This document shows positions 877 to 56,278 of a stretch of DNA of 56,278 bases, piece after piece. This DNA is from a virus, in IMG/VR virus record IMGVR_UViG_3300003323_000592, positions 1-56,278 of that record; one strand, written 5' to 3'. How positions within the stretch are numbered: the first letter of the stretch is position 1; each line of letters begins with the position of its first letter. The notes under the pieces were generated by a model that searched no databases, was not told the origin of the DNA, and worked only from the letters and a program-made list of their open reading frames with translations. The position numbers and the translations under genes were made by a program.

Positions 877-3600
877 ATGGCACAAGCCAGCCAGAGCCCC
901 AATTCAGATGTCTCCAACGTGGATGGGTCCGTCGACTTCTCCGGAGGCGTCAATTCCCTCAAGGTCACCACCGTCGCCTCGGATCAAAATCCCAAAGGTC
1001 TCGCTCGAAATGAGCTGGCGTGGCTGACCAATGGAACCGTGCGAGATGGCGGCATTACTCCGCGCGCGGGCTGGAAGCCACTGAAGAGACTGGGCTCTGG
1101 CTCCAACCCATTTCAGGGTGGTTACCTGTACCAGCCGATCAACGGCGATGACCCGTATCTGCTCTTCCTAATGGGTGGCCGTTTATTTAAAGCCGGGGTC
1201 GATGACCAGGTAGTGCAGGATTTGTTCTCCACCGTGTACGTGAAGAACAACAACCAGAAGCCGAGCATAACTCTCAAGAATCTTTCCATTCCACCCGTGG
1301 GCACCGTCGGCAACGTCACCGTGGCGGCCGATATCCAATCCATCTACGGACTACCGTCCTCCTTCGCTCAGCCGGCCATCGGATCGAATATCACCATCAC
1401 CAACAACGGGGATGTCACGGGGGAGATTGGCGACGTTATTGTGATCTACGGCTCGATGACCACGACGGCGTTGAGCATCGCTTACAACAGCTCCGCCAAC
1501 CAATGGGAGGCCAGCGCCACCTTGAAGTCCGACCAGCCCAACCTCCTGCCTGCCGGATTGAGCAGTGGTGGTGGAGCTTTCCTGAACCCACACGGCATAC
1601 CGGCGGTGGGTAAAATCACTAACCGGGTGACATGGCTCGTGCCAGTGTTCACCGCTCCCGCAGCTGGTGGCAGCGTGGTGGTGAAATTCACCAGTCCAGC
1701 CGATGTTCGCCTGTCTCCGGGCGTGTACATATTTCAGGACGCGTCACATTCCTATCCCGTCACAGTTCCCAGTGGAGGCCAAACCGTCACTTACAACTCC
1801 GGACCGAACACGCTCAGCGATCACATGGTGTTTAACGCCGCGATTTTAAGGAACACGGACGGCTCACTTATAACGAGTATTTGCGGCAAGCCAGTGGTAA
1901 ATCTTAACACCATCGCCGGGACCACTATCACCCCGACTGCACTCCTTCAGGCCGACTGCACGCCCATCACCAGCTGGACGCTTGCTCCCTTTACCGTGGC
2001 CGCCATTGGCAACACCACCATCGTGATGACTCAGCCTGCCACCGTCCCCTCCGGATTGTTCAACGCGGGCGACATCGTCAATTTCCCCTGGGGCAATGCT
2101 CAGGTGGTGAACATCACCAACGGAGTAGTGTTCAGTTTCGGCGATGGCATCACCAAGCCGTTCTTTGCCCAAGGCAACGAGTTTTGTGTGGTGCAGGCCG
2201 GGGACTATACCACCCTGCCGCTCTTTTGGGATGGCAGCATCCTGCGCAGCTCCCTAGGCATCAGCAACAACGCCGTCGCTCCCGGAACTCCCGGCGTCAA
2301 TGAGCTGCCTCCGGGTGGTCCTATGGACTTTTACATGGGGCGCCTCTGGTACTCGGTTGGACTAAACTTTCAAGCGGGCGACATCACGGGCGGTCCTTCC
2401 GGAACAGCTCCGTACAGTTTCCGGGATGCGATCCTGAACGTCACCGAGAACCCGCTCGTGTTGGGTGGTGACGGCTTTTCCACCCCCGCCAACGAAGGGC
2501 TCATCACCGCGCTCAAGCACAACGCCAACCAGGACCAGGCTCTGGGTCAGGGCGTACTGTTCGCTTTCACTCCCAAGGGAGCCCACGGCCTCACGGTGCC
2601 GGTGACGCGTGGCGACTGGATTGCAGCAAGCAATCAGAATCAGCCTAAACTGGTGCCGGTGCAGCTGGCCATGGGCACGCTCTCCGACCGATCGGTGGTG
2701 GCGGTGAATGGCGACTTGTTCTATCAGGACCCGCTGGGCAATATCCGGACCCTACTCACCGCGGTGCGTTACTTCGGTCAGTGGGGAAACCTTCCCATCA
2801 GCTCAAACATCAACCGGCTCCTTCAGTTCAACGACAAGACATTGCTCAACTGGGGTTGCGGAATCTACTTCAACAACCGGATGATTCAGTCCGCGCTACC
2901 CATCCTCACCCCGCAGGGCACGGTGCATCAAGCCTTGTCCGCGATGGACTTTGAGCCCATCAGTAATTTTCAGTCGCAGACAACTCCGATTTGGGAAGGC
3001 ATGCATGAAGGTCTCGATATTCTCCAGACTTTTGTGGGCGTGTTCAGCGGCAAGGAGCGGGCGTTCGCAGTGACGGTGTCGCGTCTCGATTTCAGCATCC
3101 AACTCTGGGAGTTGACGGCTGATGAGCGTTTCGACAATACCGACAATCGCATCCAGATGCAGGCCGAGTTTCCTGCGTTCACTTGGGGTAATGAGTTCAG
3201 CCTGAAGCAGCAGCTCTCCGCCGAACTGTGGGTGGACCGGCTGTATGGTGAAGTGGTTTTCACCTTGGAGTACCGGCCTGATGGGGAATCATGCTGGCAA
3301 AAATGGCACGAGTGGAAGATCTGTTCGCCACGTAATAGCTGCGAGAGCACCGGGGTCAACCCCTGCACCGGACTGGCGCAGGTGCAGTGCTACCCGCTGA
3401 TTCCCTACGGCGAATCATATCGGCAGACCATGACGCTGCCGACGCCTCCCGAAACTTGTGCTGCTTCCAGCGGTCGGCCGTCGTACGTAAACTACCAGTG
3501 TCAACCGCGGTTGACTGTGAAAGGTTTTTGCCGCATAAGAGGGTTGTTGCTGCACGCGACACCGAAGGAAAAAGCGCTCTACGAAGGAAAGGTTTGTTGA
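877..3600 (+). CDS. Large virion protein, probable tail nozzle (T7 gp12 / P22 gp10-like)
   Basis: 907 residues with no signal peptide or membrane segment. The N-terminal part (about residues 40-75) has a pattern ending in N-G-T-V-x-D-G-x-I-x-P-R-x-G-W, resembling the start of podoviral nozzle and DNA-stabilisation proteins. The rest is beta-rich, as expected of a propeller-based tail protein. It is the first gene of a plus-strand virion block and is followed after 1 nt by the Ig-like protein. The last third is Cys-rich (for example around ICSPRNSCESTGVNPCTG). A copy of the 16-bp palindrome lies in the gene (3500-3515), read here as Q-P-R-L-T. The nozzle assignment is inferred from length, composition and position beside an adaptor-like gene. 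Confidence 0.5.
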   Translation: MAQASQSPNSDVSNVDGSVDFSGGVNSLKVTTVASDQNPKGLARNELAWLTNGTVRDGGITPRAGWKPLKRLGSGSNPFQGGYLYQPINGDDPYLLFLMGGRLFKAGVDDQVVQDLFSTVYVKNNNQKPSITLKNLSIPPVGTVGNVTVAADIQSIYGLPSSFAQPAIGSNITITNNGDVTGEIGDVIVIYGSMTTTALSIAYNSSANQWEASATLKSDQPNLLPAGLSSGGGAFLNPHGIPAVGKITNRVTWLVPVFTAPAAGGSVVVKFTSPADVRLSPGVYIFQDASHSYPVTVPSGGQTVTYNSGPNTLSDHMVFNAAILRNTDGSLITSICGKPVVNLNTIAGTTITPTALLQADCTPITSWTLAPFTVAAIGNTTIVMTQPATVPSGLFNAGDIVNFPWGNAQVVNITNGVVFSFGDGITKPFFAQGNEFCVVQAGDYTTLPLFWDGSILRSSLGISNNAVAPGTPGVNELPPGGPMDFYMGRLWYSVGLNFQAGDITGGPSGTAPYSFRDAILNVTENPLVLGGDGFSTPANEGLITALKHNANQDQALGQGVLFAFTPKGAHGLTVPVTRGDWIAASNQNQPKLVPVQLAMGTLSDRSVVAVNGDLFYQDPLGNIRTLLTAVRYFGQWGNLPISSNINRLLQFNDKTLLNWGCGIYFNNRMIQSALPILTPQGTVHQALSAMDFEPISNFQSQTTPIWEGMHEGLDILQTFVGVFSGKERAFAVTVSRLDFSIQLWELTADERFDNTDNRIQMQAEFPAFTWGNEFSLKQQLSAELWVDRLYGEVVFTLEYRPDGESCWQKWHEWKICSPRNSCESTGVNPCTGLAQVQCYPLIPYGESYRQTMTLPTPPETCAASSGRPSYVNYQCQPRLTVKGFCRIRGLLLHATPKEKALYEGKVC
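3500..3515. repeat. 16-bp palindrome GTCAACCGCGGTTGAC, copy 1
   Basis: Exact copy inside the nozzle-like gene, read in frame as C-Q-P-R-L-T. See the palindrome finding. Confidence 0.95.
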
Positions 3601-3601
3601 T

Positions 3602-4957: not shown

Positions 4958-4998
4958 AATATCTTTTAAAAAACGAGATTGAGGAGTAAAAGACCATC

Positions 4999-6797: not shown

Positions 6798-7694
6798 ATG
6801 GCGAATTATCCAATTCCACCATGGCTTAACCCAGCTGCCGCCCAAGGCTACGGATCGCTGGTAGGTGAAGCGCAGCGCACGGCACTCAGCAATCAAATGC
6901 AGCGGGATGAACTGTCCCAGCGGGCAACCCAATTTGCCATCGAGAGCCAGCAACGCGCTCAGGAAACCGCAGCCCAAAATGCCGCACGTCAGGAGCAACT
7001 CAACTACGAGCATCAGCTGGAGCAGCAGAAAATTGCCATTGACCAGGCATATAAACAGCAGCAGGTGGGACTTCAAGCTGCCGATCTGGATCTTGCACAG
7101 AAGCAGTTCGAGGCAAAGACGCAGGACGCGGCGAAGAGGTTTAGCGCTAATCAGGCGTTCCAGAAAGCCATTCTTCCCAAGGATCAAGGCGGGGAAGGGC
7201 TCACCACCACCCAGGCGGCGCTCAAGTACATGGCCCCCTACATGACCGGCACCGAGCTGGGCCGTCTGGCGGCGCTTCCAGGAGATTTCAAACCAGGAAA
7301 CACCTTCGCGATTCCTGGCGCAGCTAATGAATCATTGGTGCAAGTTAGTCCAACTCGATGGGAAAAGTATGCCACGATTCCTCAGACGATTACCAACCCT
7401 CCGACCGCCATACCCGTACCAGACCCGGAAGGTAATACGATCGGTCACCTCATCCAAATTCCAGGGCAAAAACCAATCTACGAGCGTAACACAGAGACCG
7501 GCAATGACCTTGCCAGTATTGTGAAGAAGCGCCAGCAGGAACAGTCTGCTCCAGACAAAAAGTCAACCGCGGTTGACCCGAGCAAAGATCGTAAGGCTCA
7601 AGGCGGTTACAAGATTGGCATTGTTTACAAAGGCGGCCTGAAGTATTTGGGGGGAGACCCGAACAAAGAATCGAGTTGGGAGAAAGTAAAGTGA
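6798..7694 (+). CDS. Gln/Ala-rich coiled-coil protein, possible internal virion protein
   Basis: 298 residues. Residues about 25-115 are almost entirely Gln/Ala/Glu/Lys heptad-like helix, a long coiled coil. A short globular part and a charged tail follow. The 16-bp palindrome at 7562 encodes S-T-A-V-D in the C-terminal linker. It is followed directly by the 1,881-residue putative ejection protein, which starts with GTG 2 nt after this stop, so a role in the internal core is plausible. Confidence 0.6.
   Translation: MANYPIPPWLNPAAAQGYGSLVGEAQRTALSNQMQRDELSQRATQFAIESQQRAQETAAQNAARQEQLNYEHQLEQQKIAIDQAYKQQQVGLQAADLDLAQKQFEAKTQDAAKRFSANQAFQKAILPKDQGGEGLTTTQAALKYMAPYMTGTELGRLAALPGDFKPGNTFAIPGAANESLVQVSPTRWEKYATIPQTITNPPTAIPVPDPEGNTIGHLIQIPGQKPIYERNTETGNDLASIVKKRQQEQSAPDKKSTAVDPSKDRKAQGGYKIGIVYKGGLKYLGGDPNKESSWEKVK
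7562..7577. repeat. 16-bp palindrome, copy 2
   Basis: Exact GTCAACCGCGGTTGAC, read K-S-T-A-V-D-P in the C-terminal linker of the coiled-coil protein. Confidence 0.95.
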
Positions 7695-7695
7695 C

Positions 7696-10600
7696 GTGGC
7701 ATTCCAGCCTCCAGCAGTTGATGAGATCGAACAAGAGCAGCCGAAGTTTATCCCTCCGGCTGCTGATGAATTTGACCCTCTCCAGAACGTCAAGCTGACC
7801 GATTACGACAAGTACAAGCTGGCAGTCGCCCACGGCCAGCCACCGGAAAACTTCGCTGAGCTTGGCATACCCGCCAGCCTCAACCCAGACTACGACATCG
7901 TGCGCGAGGGAGGAGCTGTTCCGGGTCTTTCCAGCGCTCTCAAATTCTTCAGCGACAAAGTTATTGAACCGGCGGCAGCGCAGGTTTTTACTGGATTGAA
8001 GCGATCCACCGCTGCCGATGTTCCAGTCCGTGAGGATAAAAAGGGTGGAGGAGCTGTCGCGCTATACACTCCACCAGTGGAGCCGGGTAAGCCAATGCTA
8101 AGTCTACCGCGGTTGACCCCTGAGGAATTGGAAGGCGCTACGTCTGGTGAGAAGATCGCTGCCGGCATCGGTGAGGGGCTGGCGGGAACCATCGAGAGTT
8201 TTACCACTCCCGGCAACGTTGCAACACTGCCTTTTGCAGAACTGAAACCAGTTCAAGCTTACTTTGGTGCACAGATGGCTGCGTCAGTTCCTGAAGCGCT
8301 TAAGGCCATCGGTGACGCCAAAGACCCGCAGGAGACAGCGCGCGCCTACACGTCGCTGGCGGCAAACCTTGGAATGGGGGCGCTCCTCGCCCATTCCGAA
8401 TTCAAAGAAGGAGGCTCCAGTGCCAGCCAAATTAAAGAAGCAGCAACGGTTCATGGCGATGTGCGCTCACAACCCATCGATGTCGAAGCGCAAGTGTCCC
8501 CCGCGGAAAGTAGCCCAGGAGTTCAGTCACGGCCCACGCAAGAAGCCCAAGTTCCACTGAGCGACGAGCATTCCAAGCTGTTGGCGCAGCACATGACAGA
8601 GGAAGGGCATTCGTTTGGAAAACTTAGGGAAGGCGCGGTAATGCTGGCCGACCACGACACAGGCCAAGTCATCGTTGACCCTGAGCAATTCTCAAAGTGG
8701 GTTGACCGTGACCTGAAAGACCTATCCCCCGAAGAGAAGAAGGATGCAGTGCGCTCGGCGTTCGAGCATGAGGATATCCATCTCAAGACTGACCCGGACG
8801 ATGCTGAGCCGTTCTGGGAGTCGATGTCACCCTTCGAGCAATACGTACTGAAGCGCCAATATCTCAAGGGTCAGGACGCCTCCAAGTTTTCACCAGCTCA
8901 GCTTGGCTTTGAGGCGATTCGCAACCGCATAGAACGCGCGATGGGAATGACTCGCAGCGACTTCGTTGGACTCGCTCTGCATGAACGCTGGACTGCTCAG
9001 GCTTTGGACCACCTTGCCCACATTGTAGGCAAAATTCGCAGCCTTAAGGACAGTGAGTTGAGCGAGCATCAGAAATCCATCCTCGATAAAGTGCGCGAGA
9101 ACATTAACTCCGCCCGGGATGCAGTCGTATCTGGAGCTGGCGCAGCGGTTGCTGAACAGCCGTTTATGACTCGTCGTGCTGATGGCACCCCTGAAGATGA
9201 TTTAAATAGTCCGTTGCCTCCACTGATGCCGGATGAGCGTGTGGTGCTGATTCGCCGCCCCGATGGTTCTGTCTACCGTGCGTCCTACTCAGGCAAGCAA
9301 TACGACGTTAGCGCAGGCGGAAAGGCCATGATTGAGAAGTATGGCGGCTCCAAAGTGGATTCGATTGGCAGGGTGGATGAACGCGGCCAATGGTCGCATG
9401 GCCTATTGAAACCTGGAGAGAAAATCATAAAAGGCTTCAGTCCGTTCGCGGCGGTGGAGCGATCGGGAGAACCGGAAGGCCCAGCTATGCTCCGTAAAAA
9501 AGGCAAGCCGGGTGAGCAAGAGGAGCTGTTTGGAGCCATGACTGCTCGTGGGGTTCCTGGTGAAGAAACTATTCCCCTTCAAGAAAGGGCGTCAGCAGCC
9601 CAGGCAGGGGCGAAAGAGGTGGCTCCAGAGCAAAAGATTTTTCCCAAAGATATTGGGTTTGACCAGCCTGGACGGGAGATGACCGTGCGTCCCATCTCGT
9701 CTGACGAGGCGTCGAGTCCGGAGGAATTGAATAAGTTCCTGACCAGTGGCGCTCGCAGTGGCGGTTCAGAGCTGCCGGTATCTGCCACCAAACGCATCAC
9801 CGCGCTGTTTGATAAAACGGATGGATCGGTGCATTTGGTATCGACTTACAAAGGCGACAATGTCACCCGGATAGTGGACCCGGAAATTGCCGGCAAAGAG
9901 CGCAACAGCCGGCCTATTGCTGACTTGCTGCATCGGTATACGCCTTTTGCTTCCATTTTGCTGAGCGAGCCACGCCAGGGGTTTCATCAGAAATTCATGT
10001 CGATGGCCGATTACCAGCAAGCGTTCGGAGACGAGGCTGCCACGCTGGTGCGAGAACATGGAACTGGAACTGAGGGAATCCCTATGACGCGTGTGGGTGC
10101 GCTTCCGGAAGTGGAAGTGGAATATCCCGTGGAGCCCGGCAAAGAATCCTCAGAGTCGTTCTTGTATCCTCAGGAGCGGGAACCCAATCTGCCCCGTCCA
10201 ACCGAGCAGGAGTTGAAGGATTTTCACAATTTCTTTGGCGACACTCCACCCTCCGACGCCACGATGTTCAGTCGTAAGATTGAGCGGGAAGCTGCGACCG
10301 CCAGTCGGTCCATGATTAACGGCCTGAGAAAGCTGGTGGCCATGGAGCAGGCCCAAACCAAAGGGTTGAGTGAAGGTGAGGCACTGGGAAGAGTTCTGGA
10401 TAAACTTTATGAAAACTACAGTAACAGCGACACCCGCAGCGACTTCATCCAAAGGACGATGGAGCAAGGCAGTTACGGCGCTCCTAAAGAGGTTCCGCCA
10501 GGAGGAAAGCCAAGAGAGACAGGAGCCCGGGAGCTTACCACCCTCCGCAGCCGTGCCCCCACCAGCACCACCCAAGGCCGCATCCGTAAGCTAAGCCCAA

Positions 10601-13341
10601 CACCACCTCAGGGAGTCGAAGTAAATCCGGTGGAAATGCTGCCTGGGGAAGAGGGCCCGGCTATGCTGCGAAAGGTAGAGGACACCACCGAGAAGTTGAA
10701 GGCGTATCTGAGAGAAACGAGCAAAAACATCTCGAGCGCCGGCAATCTGTCCGATCAACTTTATCGCCTCAAGACCAGCGAGAAAGCGGACTACGATCTG
10801 GCGCTGCCAGTCATCAAGTCGGCCCTTAAAATAATTCCTGAGGCCGACCGTCCGAAGCTGCTCCAGTATGCCGACGAGATGCAGGTGCTAAAGAAATCCA
10901 ACATCCAACTGACCGATGCCCAGCAGACGATTTACGAGACGTTCCTCAAGCCGCTGATGGAGGACAATCAGAAGATGTATCGCTCGCTCATGCGGGCAGG
11001 CATACCGGTGGGCGAATCGACTTACCTCGGCCGCGTGGTGCAGGATACGCACTCGTTGTACAACCGGCTCTGGCAGGGCGCGAAGCAGCGCATAACGGAA
11101 GGCTCGCTGTTGGGCCAAGGTGCCAGCTTCTTCAAGCGTCGTGTGTTCAAGGCGCTCGAAGCGCCAGATGGCAGCCGACGTCTGATTGCACTCGTGGGCG
11201 ACGGCAAGGAAACGCGTGTCATTGGTTACGAGAAGGGGAAGGCTGAACTGCTGGGTAAGATGCCTCCTGAGAGTTTGGAAGTGAAGGAACTGACACCACA
11301 GCAGCAGCGCACGCAGCGCATTGTGGAAGCACGTCGGCTGGCAGAACTCGACAAACTGGACAAGGAAGAGCAGGCGCTTTTGAAGGAGCAGGACCGACTG
11401 GCCAAAGACCCCAACGCCGACCCGGTGAAGGTAAATGGCATCAAGGACCGGCTGGCCTCCATCAACGGCGACTATGCCGACGTAGCGGAGAAATATCCAT
11501 CACCAGTGTTCGACGTGCCTCGCATGTGGAAGGACAAAAACGGCAAGACGTGGCGGTTCACGGACGCGACGATCAACGAGATCGAGAGCAACACCAACAC
11601 GCGCTACTACCAGGAGCCGATGTCGGGTATTATTACTCAGAACCTTAAGCTGAAGCAGATTTACCGAGCCAAACAATTCCTGGAGGACTTGAAGAACTCG
11701 GGTGATTTCAAACGCATCTCGCGCTCCTCCAGGGAAAGAAATATACCTGAAGATTGGAGGCCGGTTAAAGATACGTCTGGGGCAATGCGAGCTTTCCAGG
11801 GGCTTATGATAGAACCTAGAACCGCAGATGTTTTGGATTTATTCGCGGAAGAGCAACGCGGCCCTTCCCTGCCAATGAAGTATGTCACGAAGCTGACCAA
11901 TTTCCTGCGCAACTCACTGTTTGTGTGGAACCCATTCGTCCACGAGCCTAACCTGCTGGCACACTGGTTCACCGCGCGTGGCATCGAGTGGGGCAAGCCG
12001 ATGGGCTACGACCGGATGCTAAAGAGCGGCGTGCAGGCGTTTAACGACGTCCTGACCCGAAGCCGTTTCCGGGACCAGGCTCTTCGTGCCGGAGCGCCTT
12101 TGATGCGTGGTATGGGAAAGATAAACCAGGAAGTGCTCAACCTGCTCCGTAAAGAGCTGGACCCCAATCCTTCACTGGGCACCCGTATTGCCCGTGGACT
12201 CGGTTACATCAACCCACTGCGCATGATCCGTGCGTTCGGTGACTCGCTGACGTGGGGAACCAACGAGGTGCTGACCCTCCAGCTCATCCGGGAAACGATG
12301 GCTCGCACCGGTCTTGGTCTTGAGGATGCCATTAGTGAAGTCGGCAAGCACATGCCGAACTACCGCATCCCGCCGCGCGTGCTGAACTCCCGGCTGATTT
12401 CCCACGTCATGCGTAACCCGCTGCTGACGCTTTGGGGTCATTACCATTACGGCGCTCTCCGGTCGTACGGTGAGATAGCCAAGGAAGTGTTCTCGCCCAA
12501 CAGCACGAAGGGTCAGCGTCTGGAGGGGCTTGGACGCGTGGCAACAATCGGATTCCTGATGGCGGTGGCTTACCCCATCATCGACGACATCGTAAACAAA
12601 GTGCTCAAGACGAAAGGACTGAAGATGCGTCGGGCTGGATCTGCGACATTCCCGCAGGGAGTGATGGATGTGGCGCGTGGTAAGAAAACTCCGGAAGCTT
12701 TGGTGCAGTCGGTATTGACGCCCTCTCCAGTGACGCAGGGGGCCATGGAACTCGCGTTTAATCGAAACCTGCGCACAGGTCTGCCAGTCTACGAGCGACA
12801 TCCCAGCATGGACACACTAAAAGACCTGGGAAGTTTTGCGGCACAAAAGATTTCACCTATCGAAGAAGCGGGACGGGTGTTTGGTGGGAAGAAGAGTGGG
12901 CAGGAATTTGCGCTTGGGCTGGCGGGCATCACGCGCACCCGGACCGACAGCGCCATGTCGCGATTTGGGCGTATGGCCGACAACTGGATGCGGACCAACT
13001 CGGACGAAGATATCCGTGAACAATACAAGCGCCGGACGCAGGACGTATTCCAGGAGTCGGACTATCAACTCCTTCGCAGTGCGATCATTAGGCAGGATGA
13101 ACGGGCCGCACAAATGGCGGTGAACAAGTTGTTGAAAACCCGGAAGCCCGAAGAGGTGGACCGTCGAATCAAACAGTGGAAAGACTCGCCGTTCACAGGG
13201 ACTCGAAAGACCGACAGGGCATTGATGGCAGAAATGACACCAGAGGATTGGGACCTCTGGTATCAGGCGGCACAGGAGCGTCTGGATATTGCAGACGGAA
13301 TGAGGAATGCTTTGGTGGACGCGCTGCTTAAACCGAAGTGA
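7696..13341 (+). CDS. Giant putative ejection / internal virion protein with HExxH motif
   Basis: 1,881 residues, started by GTG at 7696. Residues 358-362 are H-E-D-I-H, a zinc-metalloprotease HExxH signature in a helical context (AFEHEDIHLK). The middle is linker-rich with repeated G-P-A-M-L-R-K phrases. From about residue 1010 to 1650 it is helical and resembles the polyvalent LPD38-like regions of phage ejection proteins, with a hydrophobic segment FLMAVAYPIIDDIV near 1620. Giant multidomain proteins at the end of podoviral virion modules usually enter the cell with the DNA. A degenerate palindrome lies at 8102. Its stop overlaps the convergent NADAR gene by 14 nt. Confidence 0.65.
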   Translation: MAFQPPAVDEIEQEQPKFIPPAADEFDPLQNVKLTDYDKYKLAVAHGQPPENFAELGIPASLNPDYDIVREGGAVPGLSSALKFFSDKVIEPAAAQVFTGLKRSTAADVPVREDKKGGGAVALYTPPVEPGKPMLSLPRLTPEELEGATSGEKIAAGIGEGLAGTIESFTTPGNVATLPFAELKPVQAYFGAQMAASVPEALKAIGDAKDPQETARAYTSLAANLGMGALLAHSEFKEGGSSASQIKEAATVHGDVRSQPIDVEAQVSPAESSPGVQSRPTQEAQVPLSDEHSKLLAQHMTEEGHSFGKLREGAVMLADHDTGQVIVDPEQFSKWVDRDLKDLSPEEKKDAVRSAFEHEDIHLKTDPDDAEPFWESMSPFEQYVLKRQYLKGQDASKFSPAQLGFEAIRNRIERAMGMTRSDFVGLALHERWTAQALDHLAHIVGKIRSLKDSELSEHQKSILDKVRENINSARDAVVSGAGAAVAEQPFMTRRADGTPEDDLNSPLPPLMPDERVVLIRRPDGSVYRASYSGKQYDVSAGGKAMIEKYGGSKVDSIGRVDERGQWSHGLLKPGEKIIKGFSPFAAVERSGEPEGPAMLRKKGKPGEQEELFGAMTARGVPGEETIPLQERASAAQAGAKEVAPEQKIFPKDIGFDQPGREMTVRPISSDEASSPEELNKFLTSGARSGGSELPVSATKRITALFDKTDGSVHLVSTYKGDNVTRIVDPEIAGKERNSRPIADLLHRYTPFASILLSEPRQGFHQKFMSMADYQQAFGDEAATLVREHGTGTEGIPMTRVGALPEVEVEYPVEPGKESSESFLYPQEREPNLPRPTEQELKDFHNFFGDTPPSDATMFSRKIEREAATASRSMINGLRKLVAMEQAQTKGLSEGEALGRVLDKLYENYSNSDTRSDFIQRTMEQGSYGAPKEVPPGGKPRETGARELTTLRSRAPTSTTQGRIRKLSPTPPQGVEVNPVEMLPGEEGPAMLRKVEDTTEKLKAYLRETSKNISSAGNLSDQLYRLKTSEKADYDLALPVIKSALKIIPEADRPKLLQYADEMQVLKKSNIQLTDAQQTIYETFLKPLMEDNQKMYRSLMRAGIPVGESTYLGRVVQDTHSLYNRLWQGAKQRITEGSLLGQGASFFKRRVFKALEAPDGSRRLIALVGDGKETRVIGYEKGKAELLGKMPPESLEVKELTPQQQRTQRIVEARRLAELDKLDKEEQALLKEQDRLAKDPNADPVKVNGIKDRLASINGDYADVAEKYPSPVFDVPRMWKDKNGKTWRFTDATINEIESNTNTRYYQEPMSGIITQNLKLKQIYRAKQFLEDLKNSGDFKRISRSSRERNIPEDWRPVKDTSGAMRAFQGLMIEPRTADVLDLFAEEQRGPSLPMKYVTKLTNFLRNSLFVWNPFVHEPNLLAHWFTARGIEWGKPMGYDRMLKSGVQAFNDVLTRSRFRDQALRAGAPLMRGMGKINQEVLNLLRKELDPNPSLGTRIARGLGYINPLRMIRAFGDSLTWGTNEVLTLQLIRETMARTGLGLEDAISEVGKHMPNYRIPPRVLNSRLISHVMRNPLLTLWGHYHYGALRSYGEIAKEVFSPNSTKGQRLEGLGRVATIGFLMAVAYPIIDDIVNKVLKTKGLKMRRAGSATFPQGVMDVARGKKTPEALVQSVLTPSPVTQGAMELAFNRNLRTGLPVYERHPSMDTLKDLGSFAAQKISPIEEAGRVFGGKKSGQEFALGLAGITRTRTDSAMSRFGRMADNWMRTNSDEDIREQYKRRTQDVFQESDYQLLRSAIIRQDERAAQMAVNKLLKTRKPEEVDRRIKQWKDSPFTGTRKTDRALMAEMTPEDWDLWYQAAQERLDIADGMRNALVDALLKPK
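8102..8117. repeat. 16-bp palindrome, copy 3 (one mismatch)
   Basis: GTCTACCGCGGTTGAC, one base away from the exact palindrome, read S-L-P-R-L-T. Confidence 0.8.
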
Positions 13342-13798
13342 ACAACTCAGCGCGAATCTCCATCCACAGCTTACCCATCATATTCTGACCGTCCCGGTTT
13401 GGACCCCAGCCCCAGAAGTCGTCACGCCACGAGTTTTCGATGAGTGTACGGGTACCACTCTGCTGTAGTTTGCGGCGAATATACTCATGCTGCTGGGCCT
13501 TCGCGCGGAGAATTTCCTTCATAATTCCAACGCGCACCTGATTCCAATCCTCACGCACAGCCGTCTTGTATTGTCGCGCCAACTGGAGAGCCTCATGGGC
13601 GGAAGTGGCGACGATAATATCCTGCTGAACCGGCATGTCTGGGAACTTTTCCCAGTGATAGGCGTGCTCTGAAGTGGGGAACGTTATCCCCTTCCAGCCC
13701 ACCTCGAATGCTGAGAAGTTGGATAGGTAGTAGTGGTCGTTCTCGTAGAAGAACACCTCCGTATCAGTATCAAGGGTCAATCTGTTCTCTTTGGTCAT
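13328..13798 (-). CDS. NADAR-family protein (YbiA-like ADP-ribosyl N-glycosidase)
   Basis: 156 residues, one full NADAR domain. Seen: YYLSNFSAFEV (23-33), PTSEHAYHWEKF (41-52), an R-E-D-W segment (82-85), DDFWGWG (126-132) and GQNMMGKLWMEIR (137-149), the expected family blocks in order. NADAR proteins cleave N-glycosidic bonds to ADP-ribose. Some remove ADP-ribosyl groups from guanine in DNA and act as antitoxins to DarT1. In a phage this could reverse such a defence or handle NAD-derived products; which one is inference. It is the last gene of the minus block, its start overlaps the primase gene by 29 nt, and it converges on the ejection-protein gene. Confidence 0.85.
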   Translation of the reverse strand: MTKENRLTLDTDTEVFFYENDHYYLSNFSAFEVGWKGITFPTSEHAYHWEKFPDMPVQQDIIVATSAHEALQLARQYKTAVREDWNQVRVGIMKEILRAKAQQHEYIRRKLQQSGTRTLIENSWRDDFWGWGPNRDGQNMMGKLWMEIRAELFTSV

Positions 13799-14603
13799 TT
13801 GGTTTACTTGGTTGAGTCCACACCAGTTGGTTAATCATCGAGTCGATGGTGGACTTATCACCGAACTTGACGAACTCTCTCAGATCCTTGCACGGAAGCA
13901 CCATGAGGCAGGAAGGCACCGTAAGCCAGCGCTGGAGGTCCTTGGCGCCACGAATGCCAGGGTCGTCATTATCAGCCACGATCACCACTTCCTTTACTCG
14001 GCTTCGCTTCACGTGGTCTACGATGTGAGGAACGCCGCCTGAGCAACTCGGACGCCCGATAGCGTAATAGCCAAGCGAGAGAGCGGCACAGAGGTCGGTG
14101 GGACCTTCGACAACGAGCATCCTCGGCTGTGGTTTTGTGACTGGGACGAATATGCCAGCGTGTGATCCCGTCACCGCCCACTTGTCTCCCAGAAGATTAC
14201 GAATGCGTATGCCTGTGTAGTCTCCATACCCATCACGCATTGGCCAACACCAAGCGTTCTTATATCCACCCGCCAGCCAGCATTCAGTTTCTTCGAGTGA
14301 TTGAATGCTAACGCCAAGGTCGTGTGCCAACACCGCCAATCGTGGGAATGGATACGCTCGCTTCCATTCTGCCAACACCTTGCGAGCGTTTATCTTGGGA
14401 GGCTCCTTCGCTCGCGATTCGCGCACGAACGGCTTCGCGTCTCCCAAGGGATGCACCCAGCCTACCTCCCCACCGCGCAAGGTTCTGGGACGGTCCGACT
14501 GCACCCTCATACACAGAATCGCGCTCTTGCCCACCAGACACCACGTATCATGGTCACAAACCGGGCATTTATGGGCGCGGCTCACCCTAGCCATGGTGCT
14601 CAT
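13770..14603 (-). CDS. DNA primase-like protein with zinc finger and toprim domain
   Basis: 277 residues. An N-terminal zinc-binding pattern (C13, C16, C22, C31) is followed by a toprim domain with VVEGPTD (164-170) and VADNDDPG (209-216), giving the acidic triad expected for metal-dependent primer synthesis. This layout matches T7 gp4-type primase halves and plasmid or phage primases without a fused helicase. The start overlaps the previous stop by 4 nt (ATGA). The intein-containing helicase two genes upstream is the obvious partner. The zinc finger is compact, so the template motif may be unusual. Confidence 0.8.
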   Translation of the reverse strand: MSTMARVSRAHKCPVCDHDTWCLVGKSAILCMRVQSDRPRTLRGGEVGWVHPLGDAKPFVRESRAKEPPKINARKVLAEWKRAYPFPRLAVLAHDLGVSIQSLEETECWLAGGYKNAWCWPMRDGYGDYTGIRIRNLLGDKWAVTGSHAGIFVPVTKPQPRMLVVEGPTDLCAALSLGYYAIGRPSCSGGVPHIVDHVKRSRVKEVVIVADNDDPGIRGAKDLQRWLTVPSCLMVLPCKDLREFVKFGDKSTIDSMINQLVWTQPSKPNDQREQIDP

Positions 14604-15032: not shown

Positions 15033-17699
15033 TTACAATAGTTCTTCGGCGATTACTGGTTTACTGACTGGTCGTTTCCATCCGTTGTTTCGGAGATTAT
15101 CGATGAGGACTTTGGCCTCCTTGGCGGGCAGCTCGGCCGCGTTCGCGTAGCCCGCTCGTTTGAGCACGTCGGCCTGACGTGGTGTGGCCTTTCGGTCCTT
15201 CAGGCGCTTGCATAGCTCGACAAAGAGCTGCTTGGCTTGCGTGTAGGGATACTGAGAAGCGTTGATGCCGAAGCGAGCCATCAGGTTCACCTGCGACTCG
15301 GACAGTTTCTTTCCCATGTCGAACGGCTTGGGCTTGGTGGGAACCAGGTCGAGCGCATCGAAGGGGTTGATCTCGATCTTGGTGTACTTCGAGCGGGCCA
15401 CCAGCTTCACGCGCCGGGCCTCGGCCTCGCGCTTGGTGCGCTCGATGCGTTTGCGAATCTCCTCCTCCGATTCTTCCAGCACCTCCATGACATCCATCGC
15501 CTCGCCCTTCTTCTCCATTTTCTTCTTCGCGAGTTTCAGGGCGCGGTCGCTGACCTTACCGCCAAGAATGTCAGCCACGGTGATTAGCTTGTGGTTGCCG
15601 GAGTTACCCACGAAGTCGAGCACGGTGCAGCTCGGTTTCTCGGACTGGGCGATGAGTTTGCAGCGCGAACCTGAGTCCACGCAGTCGTTGAGCAGTCGTG
15701 CGATGGAGTCGGCGGGACGCAGGCCACGGCCGGCGAACTGGGTGTAGAGACTCCGGCTTTTTGTAGCGCGGCCCATGATGAGCAGCTCCACGGCGGGGTT
15801 ATCAAATCCCTCGCCGCAGATGCCGACATTGACCAGCACCTGCAACGCACCAGATTTGAAGTCCTTGAGGATAACCTTCCGCTCTTCGCGCGAAACTTTG
15901 TCCCAGATGGCCGTGGACATGCCGCTGACCACCCGGTTCAGAACCTCCGAGAAACGCTGGGCCTGCTTGATGCTCGTGCAGAACACGAGCGTCCGGCGTG
16001 GCTTGCCTTTCCGGCGCAGCACCTGCCCCCAGTCCTCGACTGGGGCGAAGTCCAGATACCGGTCAGGTAAACTCCACGAGGCTTCCAGGGTGGGCTGAAT
16101 CATGCGTTGAACCGTCTCTTCTTCTTCGAGCACGGCTGAGAGTTGTCCGAGGTTGAGATCCCCGGCGGTGGTGGAGATGTGGGAGTAGTCAAGCCCTTCC
16201 ACCGGGACGTAGTGCTGTTTGATGGGGACGAGCCAGCCTTCGCCGATGCCCGCCAGAATGTCCATCTTGTAGGCTGTTGTCTGGAACAGCTGCTTGAGAG
16301 CTTCTTCGTCAGATCGGTCAGGGGTGGCGGTGAACCCCACAACCTTGAGTCGAGGATTTTGCTGAAAGTAGCGGACCACCTTGAGGTAGGAGGGAGCGAC
16401 CCAGTGATGGCAGTTATGGACGAGCACGCCATCAGCGAAGTAATTGTGGTTGTCCTCTACTTCAATATTGTAGACAAAACCATCTGGACACAGCCCTCCA
16501 AATTTTCCATCACTTCCTGGTTCGAGAAACGTAACACTTTCCACCCTATCGACTGTAAAAAATCGACCTTCTTGCTGTCCTGTTGCCTCCTGGTCGCCGC
16601 AGAATGTGAACGACCATCTATTTCCACCCCGATCTTTAATTGAGGATGGCCAACATCCAGCTTGTAGCAGGTTGGATAACCCGAATCTCTCGGCATACTC
16701 GTTTTCACCACGACATTGGTGCTCCAAGATAACGCGGCGGCAAGTGCCGCCTCGGTGCTTGTTGGACCTTTCCCATTTCCACCCCGAGAAATAGGCTGGT
16801 GGCCAATCCGTCGTAGCGTGGCGGCCATCTTCTTGCGAGTGATCGGTTGGAACATAGGGTTGCGGTAGGTCATCCTCTGGGATGCGTATTTTCGATTTGT
16901 TCTCGCCATAGTCGATGACGACTCCCTTGATCGCATTGCGCGCGCGCAGGAGTGGGAACAGAACAGCCTCTTTCCAGACGAGACTCGAAAGCGTTCGTAT
17001 TTTGTCTTTGGTGTGACGACTCCTCCACATTCGCAGCATTTCAGGCTCATTAGTGATGAGTCTAAACACCACTGAGTTGCTTGTCAATGCGTGAGCGGGA
17101 ACGTAACCACCAACTCCGATACTGAATATCGGATGGCTGTTGGTAGTGACCATCGTGTGCCCCGAGGCAAACGCCACCCTCACCATACAGTGAGGCTTTG
17201 ATTTGAAGGTGGCGACGACCTTCTTAGGCTCGATGGTTTTTCCCATTGACCTCACCGTGTCTCCTTTTTTGAGCTGTTCGATTGGAATGCCGTCCACCAG
17301 CGTCCCCGCAGGAAAGCACTCGTCAAGGAACATATAATCGAAGTCTGTCGGCCTAAAGTTCGCCATGCGTCCATCCCCACCATTGCCTGAGTATTGGGTT
17401 TGAACGGTGCCGATCACAACTTGCTCTTTCGAGAAAACACCGTAATCAGCTTTGAGGTCTGCCATCTCAATCCCAACCTTAACGCCGGCGTTCTGCTCAA
17501 TCGTGTCCCTTGCCTGGTAAACTAGGGTGTCTCGATGGCATAAAAAAAGGCACCGGCTAGGCTGCACCCTACGTATCAGCTCGGCGGTGATACGGGTCTT
17601 GCCAAGCCCGGTCGCTAGCACATTGATTGTCGACATGACCCCTTTGTCAAACTCGGCCAGTGTTGCTGCCACGCAGTCGTCCTGATAAGGGCGAATCAC
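15033..17699 (-). CDS. DEAD/H-box helicase (SF2) interrupted by an intein
   Basis: The 888-residue precursor carries a 302-residue intein (residues 128-429). Splicing would give a helicase of about 586 residues. Seen: Q-motif-like start, Walker A with GLGKT (31-35), FLDE (124-127) joined after splicing to CHHW (430-433) to rebuild the DECH box, GFTATP motif III, and FAGRGLRP motif VI. This is the restriction-type/UvsW-like SF2 group, likely replication or branch-migration work. Translation is coupled to the upstream gene (ATGA at 17696-17699). Because the intein splits motif II, activity must depend on splicing. Confidence 0.88.
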   Translation of the reverse strand: MIRPYQDDCVAATLAEFDKGVMSTINVLATGLGKTRITAELIRRVQPSRCLFLCHRDTLVYQARDTIEQNAGVKVGIEMADLKADYGVFSKEQVVIGTVQTQYSGNGGDGRMANFRPTDFDYMFLDECFPAGTLVDGIPIEQLKKGDTVRSMGKTIEPKKVVATFKSKPHCMVRVAFASGHTMVTTNSHPIFSIGVGGYVPAHALTSNSVVFRLITNEPEMLRMWRSRHTKDKIRTLSSLVWKEAVLFPLLRARNAIKGVVIDYGENKSKIRIPEDDLPQPYVPTDHSQEDGRHATTDWPPAYFSGWKWERSNKHRGGTCRRVILEHQCRGENEYAERFGLSNLLQAGCWPSSIKDRGGNRWSFTFCGDQEATGQQEGRFFTVDRVESVTFLEPGSDGKFGGLCPDGFVYNIEVEDNHNYFADGVLVHNCHHWVAPSYLKVVRYFQQNPRLKVVGFTATPDRSDEEALKQLFQTTAYKMDILAGIGEGWLVPIKQHYVPVEGLDYSHISTTAGDLNLGQLSAVLEEEETVQRMIQPTLEASWSLPDRYLDFAPVEDWGQVLRRKGKPRRTLVFCTSIKQAQRFSEVLNRVVSGMSTAIWDKVSREERKVILKDFKSGALQVLVNVGICGEGFDNPAVELLIMGRATKSRSLYTQFAGRGLRPADSIARLLNDCVDSGSRCKLIAQSEKPSCTVLDFVGNSGNHKLITVADILGGKVSDRALKLAKKKMEKKGEAMDVMEVLEESEEEIRKRIERTKREAEARRVKLVARSKYTKIEINPFDALDLVPTKPKPFDMGKKLSESQVNLMARFGINASQYPYTQAKQLFVELCKRLKDRKATPRQADVLKRAGYANAAELPAKEAKVLIDNLRNNGWKRPVSKPVIAEELL
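16413..17318 (-). mobile_element. Intein in the helicase DECH box
   Basis: 302 residues. It starts C-F-P-A-G-T-L-V (Cys1 codon 17316-17318) with block B HTMVTTNSHP about 50 residues later. It ends in a typical C-terminal block ending NHNYFADGVLVHN, with Asn at 16413-16415 followed by Cys+1. All splice-junction residues look intact. The middle (about residues 217-380 of the precursor) has no LAGLIDADG or other in-frame endonuclease motif. The same DNA encodes an endonuclease in another frame (16457-17050). Confidence 0.9.
16457..17050 (-). CDS. Vsr-like (EDxHD) homing endonuclease encoded out of frame inside the intein
   Basis: 197 residues, reading one base off the helicase/intein frame. Seen: a treble-clef zinc finger (C5/C8 and C31/C35), a NUMOD-like segment NPMFQPITRKKM...GHQPISRGGNG (64-93), then a nuclease core with E100, D132 (YKLDV), VEIDGRSH (142-149) and D158, ending LQSIGWKVLRFSNQEV. 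These match the EDxHD family related to Vsr and to I-Bth0305I. It occupies exactly the slot between intein splicing blocks B and F, where in-frame endonucleases normally sit, and its last codons overlap block F. No clear Shine-Dalgarno precedes the ATG at 17050. Real coding is supported by preserved motifs over the full length. Confidence 0.85.
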   Translation of the reverse strand: MSLKCCECGGVVTPKTKYERFRVSSGKRLFCSHSCARAMRSRESSSTMARTNRKYASQRMTYRNPMFQPITRKKMAATLRRIGHQPISRGGNGKGPTSTEAALAAALSWSTNVVVKTSMPRDSGYPTCYKLDVGHPQLKIGVEIDGRSHSAATRRQQDSKKVDFLQSIGWKVLRFSNQEVMENLEGCVQMVLSTILK

Positions 17700-31203: not shown

Positions 31204-31219
31204 GTCTACCGTGGTTGAC
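31204..31219. repeat. 16-bp palindrome, copy 6 (two mismatches, intergenic)
   Basis: GTCTACCGTGGTTGAC, the only copy outside a gene. It lies in the divergent control region. Confidence 0.65.
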
Positions 31220-35601: not shown

Positions 35602-35632
35602 CTTGACAGTCAAGCACAGAGTATGGGATAAC
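35602..35632 (+). promoter_or_regulatory. Promoter with palindromic operator
   Basis: CTTGACAGTCAAG (35602-35614, perfect 13-bp palindrome) contains the -35 box TTGACA. An 18-bp spacer leads to GATAAC (35627-35632), 10 nt before the ATG at 35642. The layout fits autoregulation by the XRE gene. Confidence 0.65.
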
Positions 35633-35641
35633 GGCCCCATT

Positions 35642-44957: not shown

Positions 44958-46289
44958 ATGGCAACTGAAGCTCCCACAATCGTACCCCCATCCGCTCCTG
45001 CTCGACCCGTCGCCGCTGGCGCTCCTAGCGCCGTGCCAGCCTCAGCGGGGGAGATCCATGTCACCCCTGGTAAACTGACACCTGTGCCTTCCGAGGCACC
45101 CAAGACAGGGTCAGCGAAGTCACGGTTGCGTGAAAGTTTGGAGGCCAAGAGCAACGCCAATCCGCGCACTGCCGCGCCGCCGGTCGCCAAGCCAGTTGAG
45201 CGACCAGGCACTGCCGCCACTCCGCCCGTACAACCCAAGCCGGGTGAGGCGACTGCCTCTCCTGCTGAGCCGGCTGCCACCGCGGCGACTGAGACACCTA
45301 AACCGGGTGAGTCAACCGCGGTTGACCCCAAGGATGGGAAGAGGCCAAGCCCGTGGAAACTGGTGGAAGATTACAAGGCTAAGGCCACCAAGGCAGAGCA
45401 AGAGCTGGCCCAACTCCGGCAGAACCAACTTCCGGAGAATGATCGCAAATCACTCGAGGAGCGAATTGCCAAGGCTGAGCAGCAAGCAGCTGAGTACAAA
45501 AAGCGACTCATCGACAAAGATTGGCAGGAGAGCGACGACTACAAGAAGCAGCAGAGCGAGTACGAGTCGGCGTGGAAAGTGGCGATTGCTGAGATGCAGG
45601 GCATCACGGTGTCCGATGGTCAGGGTGGTGAACGGCCGGTGTCCGCTCAGGACTTACTCACAATCGTGAACGCGCCCATGGCACAGGCCCGCAAGATGTC
45701 CGAAGAGCTGTTCGGCTCATACGCCAACGATGTGATGCTGCATCGTAATAAAATCCGCGACCTGTTCGACAACCAGAGCAAGTCACTGGAGGCCAAGAAG
45801 GCGGAGAGTTTGGCGAAGAAGCAGCAGGAACTGGAAACTCAGGCCAAGACCCAGAAGGAGCTGATGCAGACCATCAGCACCACGTGGCAGAAGGAGAACG
45901 AGGCCGCGCTCAACGATCCGAAGTACGGGCCGCTCTTCAAACCCCGCGAAGGTGACGAGCAATGGAATCAGCGGCTCGCGAAAGGGTTTGAGCTGGTTGA
46001 CAAAGCGTTCTCCCAAAACCCGGCTGATCCGAAGCTGACTCCCGAAGAGCGGGCGGCGGTGATTCGTCGTCACGCGGCAGTGAGGAACCGCGCGGCGGCG
46101 TGGGGTCCGTTGCGCGGCGAAGTGGAGGCTCTGACTGCACAGGTGAAGTCGCTCACGGAAGAGCTGGCCACGTATAAGGGCACCGAGCCCCCGACTGGCG
46201 GTGAACGCAAGACCGCTCCAGCCGCAGCGCCCGGCTCAGGTAATGCCAAGGCCGGCATCATGGAAGAGCTGAAGAAACGGGCGCGTTGA
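44958..46289 (+). CDS. Scaffolding-like protein
   Basis: 443 residues. Residues 1-130 are Pro/Ala/Thr-rich and disordered. A long coiled coil follows (about 140-185 and 270-310). The end is helical and basic (GIMEELKKRAR). It lies before the capsid gene, as scaffolds do, with composition and length to match. The start has TTGATTTT upstream and no Shine-Dalgarno. The palindrome encodes S-T-A-V-D (45311) in the disordered part. Confidence 0.65.
   Translation: MATEAPTIVPPSAPARPVAAGAPSAVPASAGEIHVTPGKLTPVPSEAPKTGSAKSRLRESLEAKSNANPRTAAPPVAKPVERPGTAATPPVQPKPGEATASPAEPAATAATETPKPGESTAVDPKDGKRPSPWKLVEDYKAKATKAEQELAQLRQNQLPENDRKSLEERIAKAEQQAAEYKKRLIDKDWQESDDYKKQQSEYESAWKVAIAEMQGITVSDGQGGERPVSAQDLLTIVNAPMAQARKMSEELFGSYANDVMLHRNKIRDLFDNQSKSLEAKKAESLAKKQQELETQAKTQKELMQTISTTWQKENEAALNDPKYGPLFKPREGDEQWNQRLAKGFELVDKAFSQNPADPKLTPEERAAVIRRHAAVRNRAAAWGPLRGEVEALTAQVKSLTEELATYKGTEPPTGGERKTAPAAAPGSGNAKAGIMEELKKRAR
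45311..45326. repeat. 16-bp palindrome, copy 8
   Basis: Exact copy, read E-S-T-A-V-D-P in the disordered linker of the scaffold-like protein. Confidence 0.95.
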
Positions 46290-50870: not shown

Positions 50871-51781
50871 AAACCTTCCTGCTTATTTTTGGCATACTAT
50901 TGGGGCTGAGCGCCCGCGCCGACACCGTGCTGCAGATGAATCAGATGGTGACGGGTAGCAACGTGTATGCTCCAAGCGTTCTGTTCGACCAGCAGGAGAA
51001 TAAGTACAAAATGTGGTACGGCGGGTGGCAGCTCACCTCCGACTCTCCACACGACAACATCTATTACCGGGAGTCCACCAACGGCATCAACTGGGGAGGG
51101 TACACCAAGGTACTCGACCACTCCACTTACAGCATGTTCCATGTCAACGACCCCACAGTCATCAAGGCGTGGAACGGAGCGCTAAACCGGTGGATGTACT
51201 GGATGTTCTTCACCGGCATCGCCTGCGATCCGACAATCTGTTCGATCACCAACCACCACATTTACGCGGTCAGTGGATTTGATGGTAAAACGTGGGGTGG
51301 ATTTCAGAAGGTCATCGATGGCTACGGAACCAATGGGGTGTTCGCCCCTTCCGTCGTCAGCCTCAACGACACCAATGGAACCTTCTGGCTTTACTACCAG
51401 ATGACCGGTGTGGCGGACCGCATCATCCTGACGCAGTTGACGGCCGGAACGGTTGGTGTGTCCACGCAAGAGGTCTACGTGTCGTCTTTTGATGGCGCTC
51501 ACAACCCTGATGTCTCTAGGAAGCCGGATGGAACCTGGACGATGATGTACAACCGGATCGACACCAATAACGCTTTCCACATTTGGAAGCTGACATCGAC
51601 CAACGGCATTGATTGGACCAATGACACCTTGATTCTCTACAGTGGGTGCTCCCCCTTCTGCGTCGCCACCACTCCGAATCACAGGTGGTTGAACAACAGC
51701 AACTACTACCTTTATTACGGCCTGGATGAAACACTCACCTTTCCATCAGCGGAAATCCATGGCTGGAAAATGAGTGAATAA
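50867..51781 (+). CDS. Secreted five-bladed-propeller (glycoside-hydrolase-like) protein
   Basis: 304 residues. Signal peptide MKTFLLIFGILLGLSARA. Propeller repeats: YAPSVLFDQQENKYKMWYGG, shown in parts (KYKMWYGG), then NDPTVIKAWNG, FAPSVVSLND, WLYYQMTG and NPDVSRKPDGTW. The fold is that of GH43/GH130-type enzymes. It may cleave a host polysaccharide. Paired with the signal-bearing gene before it. Confidence 0.65.
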   Translation: MKTFLLIFGILLGLSARADTVLQMNQMVTGSNVYAPSVLFDQQENKYKMWYGGWQLTSDSPHDNIYYRESTNGINWGGYTKVLDHSTYSMFHVNDPTVIKAWNGALNRWMYWMFFTGIACDPTICSITNHHIYAVSGFDGKTWGGFQKVIDGYGTNGVFAPSVVSLNDTNGTFWLYYQMTGVADRIILTQLTAGTVGVSTQEVYVSSFDGAHNPDVSRKPDGTWTMMYNRIDTNNAFHIWKLTSTNGIDWTNDTLILYSGCSPFCVATTPNHRWLNNSNYYLYYGLDETLTFPSAEIHGWKMSE

Positions 51782-52340
51782 GTGGCTTCCATTGCTGCTA
51801 TTGCTGACAGGATGCACAACGTCAACCACGGTTGACTCGTCGCACAAGCTGGTGTCGATCGCGTCTCGCTCGGAACCACTGGTGGTCATCACTCCTTCAG
51901 CTCCCGTCAGAATTGTCGACTGGCAGGACTTCGTGTGGTCCGAGTCCGACACCAACGTCGCCTCCTTCAACCTCTACTACAGCAGCACTTCTCCCCATGT
52001 TTATGACCAGGCAATCCGTGATATTCCAACTCTCGGTTGTGCAGTGTCAAACCTGGTGGTGGGTACGACGTATTACTTAGCCGCGACAGCTGTAGACACC
52101 AACGGCAACGAGAGTGACCTTTCCGACCAGTACGTGTTCGTGATGTCAACGAACCTCGAATTTGGGTTGGTATTTGACCAGGCTGTTACAAATGTCTCAG
52201 TGCAAAGCAGTACCGACCTGATGACGTGGTCAGCATCCAACGCACGCCAGAGAACCAACGGCTTGTGGAGAGTGGAAGTGGACCCCGCCTCCCCGGTGGA
52301 ATTTTACCGCGGCATCGGGCAAGTTGCACCAGCCCTATGA
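51774..52340 (+). CDS. Lipoprotein with a fibronectin-III-like domain
   Basis: 188 residues. N-terminus MNKWLPLLLLLTGC with lipobox L-L-T-G-C, then S-T-T-V-D from a palindrome copy at 51821. Body: NLYYSSTSP, NLVVGTTYYLAATAVDTNGNES, a Fn3-like pattern common in secreted proteins. Likely a surface lipoprotein. Confidence 0.65.
   Translation: MNKWLPLLLLLTGCTTSTTVDSSHKLVSIASRSEPLVVITPSAPVRIVDWQDFVWSESDTNVASFNLYYSSTSPHVYDQAIRDIPTLGCAVSNLVVGTTYYLAATAVDTNGNESDLSDQYVFVMSTNLEFGLVFDQAVTNVSVQSSTDLMTWSASNARQRTNGLWRVEVDPASPVEFYRGIGQVAPAL
51821..51836. repeat. 16-bp palindrome, copy 9 (one mismatch)
   Basis: GTCAACCACGGTTGAC, read S-T-T-V-D right after the lipoprotein Cys. Confidence 0.8.
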
Positions 52341-55236: not shown

Positions 55237-55238
55237 AA

Positions 55239-56278
55239 TCAGCTGTAGTTCAGCTCGTGACTCTTGCGAGCCTCACGCATCTTGCTGCGCGCGCCTTTGA
55301 GCCAGTCCTCGCGTGGAGGCAGCTCCACCTGCTTGCCAAGATTCTTGATGACAAAGCCGAGTCGTCGAGCCCCCTCAGTGCCGATGGCCACCGTGTCAGC
55401 CAAGTCTGGTGAGCGGCCGATCTTCAGCTTCATATCCGCCTTGGGCTCAACCTGAATCTTGTTCTTGCCGGCCATGCCCCATTCCCGTTGGCAGAACTCC
55501 ATCAGCACATCTTCCGTCATGCCTCGAAACTGGCCTGACTCCACCACGTTGCGCACCGAGTACCACATCTCCGTCACGTAGTTGAAGTAATACTCCTTGC
55601 ACGGCATCACAATCTGTTCACTCACCTGCTTCTCAGACGCGGGCCCTCCGCAGTCAATGGAGTTGGCAAAGGCCCAACCCATCCGGCCAAAGCAGGACAC
55701 GAGGCCTGTCCGCATACCAGAGTCGTAGAAGAATTTCTCAGGCGGGATGCCGGACTCAGCGCATCGGGCCTGCACAAAGGCGACGATTTGCTCCTCCGCT
55801 TCATCTTTGTTGTTCGCTTGGATAGGCACGATGTCGGTCCGTACCAGGTGCAGGATGGGACGGATCGGGCTCTTCGGCACAGCCTGGTTAAGCAGCACTT
55901 CCACCTCTCCCGAGTCAACCGCGGTTGACTCAATCTCGTCCCCAAACTCCAGCTCGGCGTACACACACCGGTCACCGCCCACGCCCTTGTACGCGGCATC
56001 CAAGCAGGCAATACGGGTACGGTTGGAATTGCGCCAGATCGGTTCCTCCATCGCCTTGTTCTTCACCGCCATGTTACGGGTCAGTACGCGTCGGCTGCCC
56101 TGACCGCGAGGCATCTTGCCTTCATCCATCATCGTCACCCAGATGGAGTCAGTGCCGTAGAACGCGACGTCACGATCAATGTCAGCCTGCGTGATGAGGG
56201 GGATGCCGAGTTTGCCATCAAGGTTGGGAGAATCGCTGCCGGGGAGCTGGATGCGGCGGGTTTTCCAAGTCTTGGTAC
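55239..56278 (-). CDS. terL: Terminase large subunit, C-terminal nuclease part
   Basis: Continues the ATPase half at 1-823 through the circular joint, in frame at 56264. Expected nuclease features: IACLDAAYKGVGGDRC (first Asp, strand 1), FFYDSGMRT (second acidic patch) and a late D in GRSPDLADTVAIG. These form the RNase H-like acidic triad of TerL. A palindrome copy at 55914 encodes S-T-A-V-D between strands. Together with the first part this makes 615 residues. Confidence 0.88.
   Translation of the reverse strand, partial: TKTWKTRRIQLPGSDSPNLDGKLGIPLITQADIDRDVAFYGTDSIWVTMMDEGKMPRGQGSRRVLTRNMAVKNKAMEEPIWRNSNRTRIACLDAAYKGVGGDRCVYAELEFGDEIESTAVDSGEVEVLLNQAVPKSPIRPILHLVRTDIVPIQANNKDEAEEQIVAFVQARCAESGIPPEKFFYDSGMRTGLVSCFGRMGWAFANSIDCGGPASEKQVSEQIVMPCKEYYFNYVTEMWYSVRNVVESGQFRGMTEDVLMEFCQREWGMAGKNKIQVEPKADMKLKIGRSPDLADTVAIGTEGARRLGFVIKNLGKQVELPPREDWLKGARSKMREARKSHELNYS
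55914..55929. repeat. 16-bp palindrome, copy 10
   Basis: Exact copy, read E-S-T-A-V-D-S in the terminase nuclease domain. Confidence 0.95.

Follow-up and report, generated by a model that had tools for sequence, protein, structure and literature searches.

The viral record IMGVR_UViG_3300003323_000592 from IMG/VR is composed of 56,278 bp with a 15-base repeat at both ends, and this whole stretch was analysed here (hereafter, the window). It contains ten copies of a 16-bp palindrome, GTCAACCGCGGTTGAC, and, on the minus strand, a gene (17696–18520) for the protein proposed to bind them, which we call the adaptor and which carries a probable N-terminal ParB-like helix-turn-helix (WGVSKQRAYQLI) and a C-terminal zinc-type domain of CxxC...CxxC form. 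The start of a superfamily 2 (SF2) helicase gene with ResIII and Helicase_C domains (15033–17699, minus strand) overlaps the end of the adaptor gene by 4 bp and accompanies it in relatives, and a Toprim DNA primase gene (13770–14603, minus strand) belongs to the same gene run. Neither the DNA nor the portal protein of the window was matched among known phages.

The window was scanned for GTCAACCGCGGTTGAC at up to three mismatches and compared with 100 shuffles. Seven copies were exact, two differed at one position and one at two positions, and none had exactly three mismatches, while the shuffles gave a mean of 0.36 copies at three mismatches or fewer and a maximum of 2. That the mismatch distribution ends so sharply points to selection for a defined site. 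Seven of the ten copies are perfect palindromes, and the set has the form of parS-like sites, namely an unspaced 16-bp palindrome in several copies. An earlier note, made from the letters of this stretch alone, had listed the ten copies as a set far above chance and had read six exact ones as S-T-A-V-D; the rescan returned every coordinate and mismatch class as listed, the excess over chance, and the S-T-A-V-D reading at 7562, 18236, 26059, 36340, 45311 and 55914, with S-T-T-V-D at 51821.

The sites were followed into relatives, principally G004 (56,053 bp, in reverse orientation) and G320, whose portal-like protein is 86% identical to that of the window. The exact copy at 3500–3515, read Q-P-R-L-T in open reading frame (ORF) 877–3600, is conserved in G004 and decayed to GTCAACCGAGGTTGAA in G320. 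The exact copy at 7562–7577 (S-T-A-V-D in ORF 6798–7694) is conserved in G004 and switched to GTCCACCGCGGTGGAC in G320. The one-mismatch copy at 8102–8117 (GTCTACCGCGGTTGAC, in the L-P-R-L-T frame) occurs as the same variant in G004 and is absent from G320. The exact copy at 18236–18251 lies in the adaptor gene, directly past the helix-turn-helix, and that at 26059–26074, in the ThiF-like ORF 25618–26466, is substituted in place in both G004 and G320. The copy with two mismatches (31204–31219) lies in a divergent control region where no convincing gene was called. The exact copy at 36340–36355, at the end of ORF 35603–36367, has one mismatch in G004 and is switched in G320; that at 45311–45326 (ORF 44958–46289) is retained in G004, next to a 3-bp indel. 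A one-mismatch copy (51821–51836) lies in ORF 51774–52340, and the last exact copy (55914–55929, ORF 55239–56138) has one mismatch in G003 and is absent from G004.

G004 carries eight sites, six of them at window positions, where the 16-mers show little or no change and the flanking DNA is about 70–80% identical with small indels. The window sites at 26059 and 55914 are missing there, and G003 carries one site without a counterpart in the window. The earlier note had considered a mobile mini-palindrome that inserts into genes, and the predominance of a single reading frame would suit such an element. However, positions without a site in relatives mostly hold substituted sequence in the alignment and no clean gap, the copies have no common flanks, and whole site sets switch sequence in concert, as described below. 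The precise insertion against empty sites that characterizes mobile palindromic elements of the RPE/REP type was not found in the alignments of the relatives. Siteless relatives keep the same stretch in substituted form, and the mobile option, which did not survive this comparison, is now very improbable. Judged from the alignments, sites have come and gone by point changes and not by insertion. Conservation of S-T-A-V-D purely as protein sequence has even less to recommend it and we give it next to no credence: six exact copies do encode these residues, but the copies at 3500 and 8102 are read in a different frame, the codon string has a joint probability of about 0.002 per copy, and the carrier proteins are unrelated to each other. 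The palindrome is, on this comparative evidence, a DNA-level feature, and S-T-A-V-D only a frame that the proteins tolerate.

No exact GTCAACCGCGGTTGAC was found in G320, which has nine GTCCACCGCGGTGGAC-type sites with the change mirrored in both halves; read from the codons, the change from GTCAACCGCGGTTGAC to GTCCACCGCGGTGGAC is silent in the S-T-A-V-D frame. The earlier note had taken homologues with the same residues but different DNA as a sign of plain protein conservation. Such a combination does occur in G320, but it does not carry that meaning there, as the same two mirror-image changes recur at nearly all of its sites, which is predicted for a changed binding site and not for conserved protein sequence.

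A census of repeated palindromes in further relatives, run without a prior motif, gave CTCGGAwwTCCGAG in G321, G324 and G330, CGGGGAwwTCCCCG in G323, TTGGGAwwTCCCAA in the fragment G360, CCGGAAnTTCCGG in G335 and CGCAACnGTTGCG in G326. The palindromes of G321, G323, G324, G330, G335 and G326 are present in 6–28 copies each, compared to 0–0.6 expected. Hidden palindromes were also sought in the adaptor-bearing phages that had no census match, and only G342 yielded a plausible pair, a perfect 16-bp palindrome (GAGAACCATGGTTCTC) in the adaptor gene at the position equivalent to S-T-A-V-D and one near copy (L237:432, L238:19214). Seven near full-length relatives that have no adaptor showed no such palindrome. 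Repeated non-palindromic words were seen in G349 (L285–L287), G350 (L262–L264), G333 and G336, such as CTCGGTTAGC with 16 copies in G349 and CGGCTACGGC with 15 in G350.

Adaptor relatives have the C-terminal domain in common (profile match, 99.9% probability) and differ in their heads. The window-type head is found in G000, G004, G320, G342, G355 and G357, and a head of ParB_N plus helix-turn-helix in G321, G323, G324, G330, G335 and others; the ParB_N nucleotide-binding domain is absent from the window adaptor. A structure model of the G323 orthologue matches Noc, ParB and KorB structures. Among the window-type heads, the recognition helix is GVSRSRAHQLI in G320 versus GVSKQRAYQLI or GVTRQRAYQLI, such that KQRAY or RQRAY pairs with the A-form site and RSRAH with the C-form site. 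ParB-type orthologues with a VD[DN][KH]TV or VTDKTV helix have palindromes in five of five cases, all with GGA..TCC-type sites, compared to none of the five with other helices (G327, G329, G331, G341 and G361). Furthermore, all nine palindrome-bearing phages have a site within the adaptor gene itself (G324 by a looser match), with a chance product of about 1e-5 over seven lineages. This covariation of sites with DNA-binding domains strongly supports the earlier suggestion that a DNA-binding protein of the phage recognizes the palindromes, including the candidate at 17696–18520. Most likely, the palindromes serve a ParB-like phage protein as sites dispersed over the genome at even spacing.

As a follow-up test, deposited phages were searched with the G330 adaptor protein, which led to MW202545 (57,457 bp). 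As in the window, its annotated parB-like gene overlaps the helicase gene by four bases, with the primase gene downstream. MW202545 contains eight exact copies of ACTAGTCWGACTAGT, two of them within the parB-like gene (P = 0.005 for at least two in that gene). No repeated palindrome to speak of was found in MT835519 or in MW202898, which has a parB-like gene without a helicase neighbour.

Sites in the window are spaced more evenly than random (P = 0.015), as they are in most of the genomes, with a Fisher's combined P of 3.6e-7 over seven, although the spacing P values vary with the site thresholds and with the treatment of records as circular. Over nine phages, 104 of 115 sites lie within genes in a greedy ORF set, and 11 are not fully coding, compared to 5.8 expected. 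As the sites are mostly genic and evenly spaced, a genome-wide role is favoured over promoter control. This bears on the alternative that the adaptor, in the manner of KorB or of stoperators, silences or times phage transcription from scattered sites. On RK2, the ParB-family CTPase KorB exerts long-range repression from its 16-bp OB sites (PMC11790492), cluster A repressors bind many sites that are mostly outside promoters (PMC6550527), and both the site in the adaptor gene, suggestive of autoregulation, and the excess of sites that are not fully coding would fit such a role. It is nevertheless an unlikely one: besides the even spacing, most sites lie deep within genes, the adaptor gene adjoins helicase and primase genes and not a lysogeny locus, and the window-type protein has no ParB_N clamp domain. 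A simple scan of the relatives found no tyrosine-integrase motif, and no ParA motif of KGGVGKT type was found in the window or its relatives, nor any ParA among the window proteins in a Pfam scan.

Even spacing would also suit a role in genome organisation or partition, in which the protein spreads from ParB/Noc-like nucleation sites to coat, compact or segregate the phage DNA, and the ParB/Noc fold modelled for the distant G323 orthologue and the identical 16-mer beside parAB in Anaerolineae point the same way. The missing ParA-like Walker motif, the window-type protein without ParB_N alongside relatives with other heads, and the C-terminal zinc-type domain, which is common to both head types and not known from ParB, make this role doubtful.

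Across 257 Gb of genomes, GTCAACCGCGGTTGAC was found in 86 stretches, which is near chance. A link with Verrucomicrobiota, raised in the earlier note, was not borne out: a single one of the 86 stretches belongs to a Verrucomicrobiales bin, which contains one copy in 6.5 Mb. In several Anaerolineae, one to three copies lie 0.6–2.9 kb from the helix-turn-helix of parB and flank parAB (eight loci: L136, at 5530, 6603 and 9564, L138, L137, L139, L047, L089, L093 and L098). At least one of these copies abuts a TGTTTCCCGTGAAACG site similar to canonical parS, and the ParB beside the 16-mer has a recognition helix, GYSRQRIHQLI, similar to that of the window adaptor. In some Anaerolineae, GTCAACCGCGGTTGAC thus looks like a lineage-specific, second parS; for Chloroflexota overall it was present in 3 of 301 genomes, indicating that the site belongs to a subclade. 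The same eight loci raise the idea of host parS mimicry, in which the phage genome would capture the host ParB. The other palindromes of sister phages track their own adaptors, and we regard mimicry as quite improbable.

Other viral contigs with the 16-mer were considered and set aside. The copies in G006, G008, G010 and G011 are mostly intergenic, and these apparently unrelated contigs have no proteins in common with the window, so that they do not seem to carry the window's system. They carry 2–4 copies of GTCAACCGCGGTTGAC or its one-mismatch form (L110, L112, L114 and L116), possibly as operators of another system. The single copies in G001, G002, G005, G007 and G009 appear to be chance occurrences.

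The helicase gene is present in 22 of 23 adaptor-bearing phages and adjoins the adaptor gene in nearly all of them, while other phages gave weak matches at most. Because helicase and adaptor co-occur, their genes overlap by four bases and the primase gene comes next, we favour helicase recruitment: the palindromes are probably the cognate sites of the adaptor, whose C-terminal domain would then recruit helicase and primase. The adaptor would act as a dimeric ParB-like DNA-binding protein, with one helix-turn-helix reading each half-site. Selection would keep the sites scattered through coding sequence at even spacing, one of them within the adaptor gene itself. The conserved C-terminal domain would deliver the primase and the SF2 helicase encoded next to the adaptor to numerous places along the genome, where replication or recombination might be started or restarted, much as lambda O acts at one origin. 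The site set, its concerted change, the covariation with the DNA-binding domain and the own-gene copy are the supported parts of this proposal, as far as sequence comparison reaches.

Several observations weigh against it. We infer the recruitment step from gene coupling alone, and the dependence of the spacing statistics on thresholds and circularity has been noted. Residues ~17–137 of the window adaptor match the helix-turn-helix region of an Anaerolineae ParB in a profile comparison at 75% probability, with no Pfam match, and the structure model is poor (pLDDT 58) and matches no fold. In about 13 adaptor-bearing relatives, no dispersed palindrome was detected, nor was one in the Acidovorax phage AP1 (Paracidovorax oryzae), which has the adaptor–helicase–primase operon (L291:8605–11821) with the adaptor annotated as 'plasmid replication/partition related protein'. 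AP1 shows that the association of operon and palindromes is not universal, and together with these relatives it implies that the sites are not required by every such module or take another form there. As AP1 is cultured, it may serve as a laboratory model for the operon.

A broader picture can be offered as a tentative possibility, rather less secure than the proposal above: a phage family would mark its whole genome with evenly spaced palindromes particular to each phage. A modular adaptor, with an exchangeable head of ParB-like or another DNA-binding type and a conserved zinc-type tail, would recognize them and load the SF2 helicase and primase at numerous positions. This would amount to a multi-site system of replication or recombination, with sites that are maintained within genes and rewritten genome-wide as the specificity of the adaptor changes. 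Within this one family, DNA-binding domains and their palindromes form a natural series of pairs; in one pair of sister phages, a few recognition-helix changes accompany one mirrored base change at sites genome-wide. How a DNA-binding protein and its dispersed sites coevolve thus becomes directly testable. A function is also suggested for an unannotated phage gene beside a helicase gene.

The helicase gene contains a probable intein of ~302 residues in motif II (16413–17318, minus strand; DE|C...HN|CHH), with borders inferred from the translation; it is missing from the relatives, which align only outside this interval. A link with defence systems was rejected, as a defence library gave generic helicase-type matches only. 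Other genes of the window encode a NADAR-domain protein (13328–13798) and the ThiF-like protein (25618–26466).

In phage lambda, the O and P proteins recruit the helicase. Dimers of the initiator O bind inverted repeats within the initiator's own gene (PMC5043065), and the adaptor resembles O, at the sequence level, in having a site in its own gene. Whereas the lambda iterons form one cluster, the sites described here are single and genome-wide, and the helicase is of SF2 type. The 15-bp repeated element SPBRE of phage SPbeta is bound by one phage protein, MrpR (PMC10516654), and is similar in being a repeated element assigned to a single phage protein; however, SPBRE lies in promoter regions, and the fold of MrpR is that of a tyrosine recombinase. 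Stoperators of cluster A mycobacteriophages such as L5 are likewise many and dispersed in each phage genome with a matching protein, and sites and repressor diverge together (PMC6550527). Stoperators have no symmetry and for the most part follow the direction of transcription, whereas the window sites are mainly perfect palindromes, mostly intragenic, with the partner gene beside replication genes. In ParB/parS and Noc/NBS, helix-turn-helix recognition residues set specificity (PMC7383237), and Noc sites are described as scattered round the chromosome (PMC4331003). These systems share unspaced 16-bp palindromes and, probably, a helix-turn-helix protein with the window system, which differs in its site sequence, its many sites in 56 kb and its lack of ParA and ParB_N. 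KorB of the IncP plasmid RK2, with OB sites that act at a distance (PMC11790492), is a ParB-family DNA-binding protein with 16-bp sites, as the adaptor is proposed to be. KorB has retained the ParB_N CTPase clamp and acts at promoters together with KorA, whereas the window adaptor lacks ParB_N, ends in a zinc-type domain, is encoded next to a helicase gene and has its sites mostly within genes.

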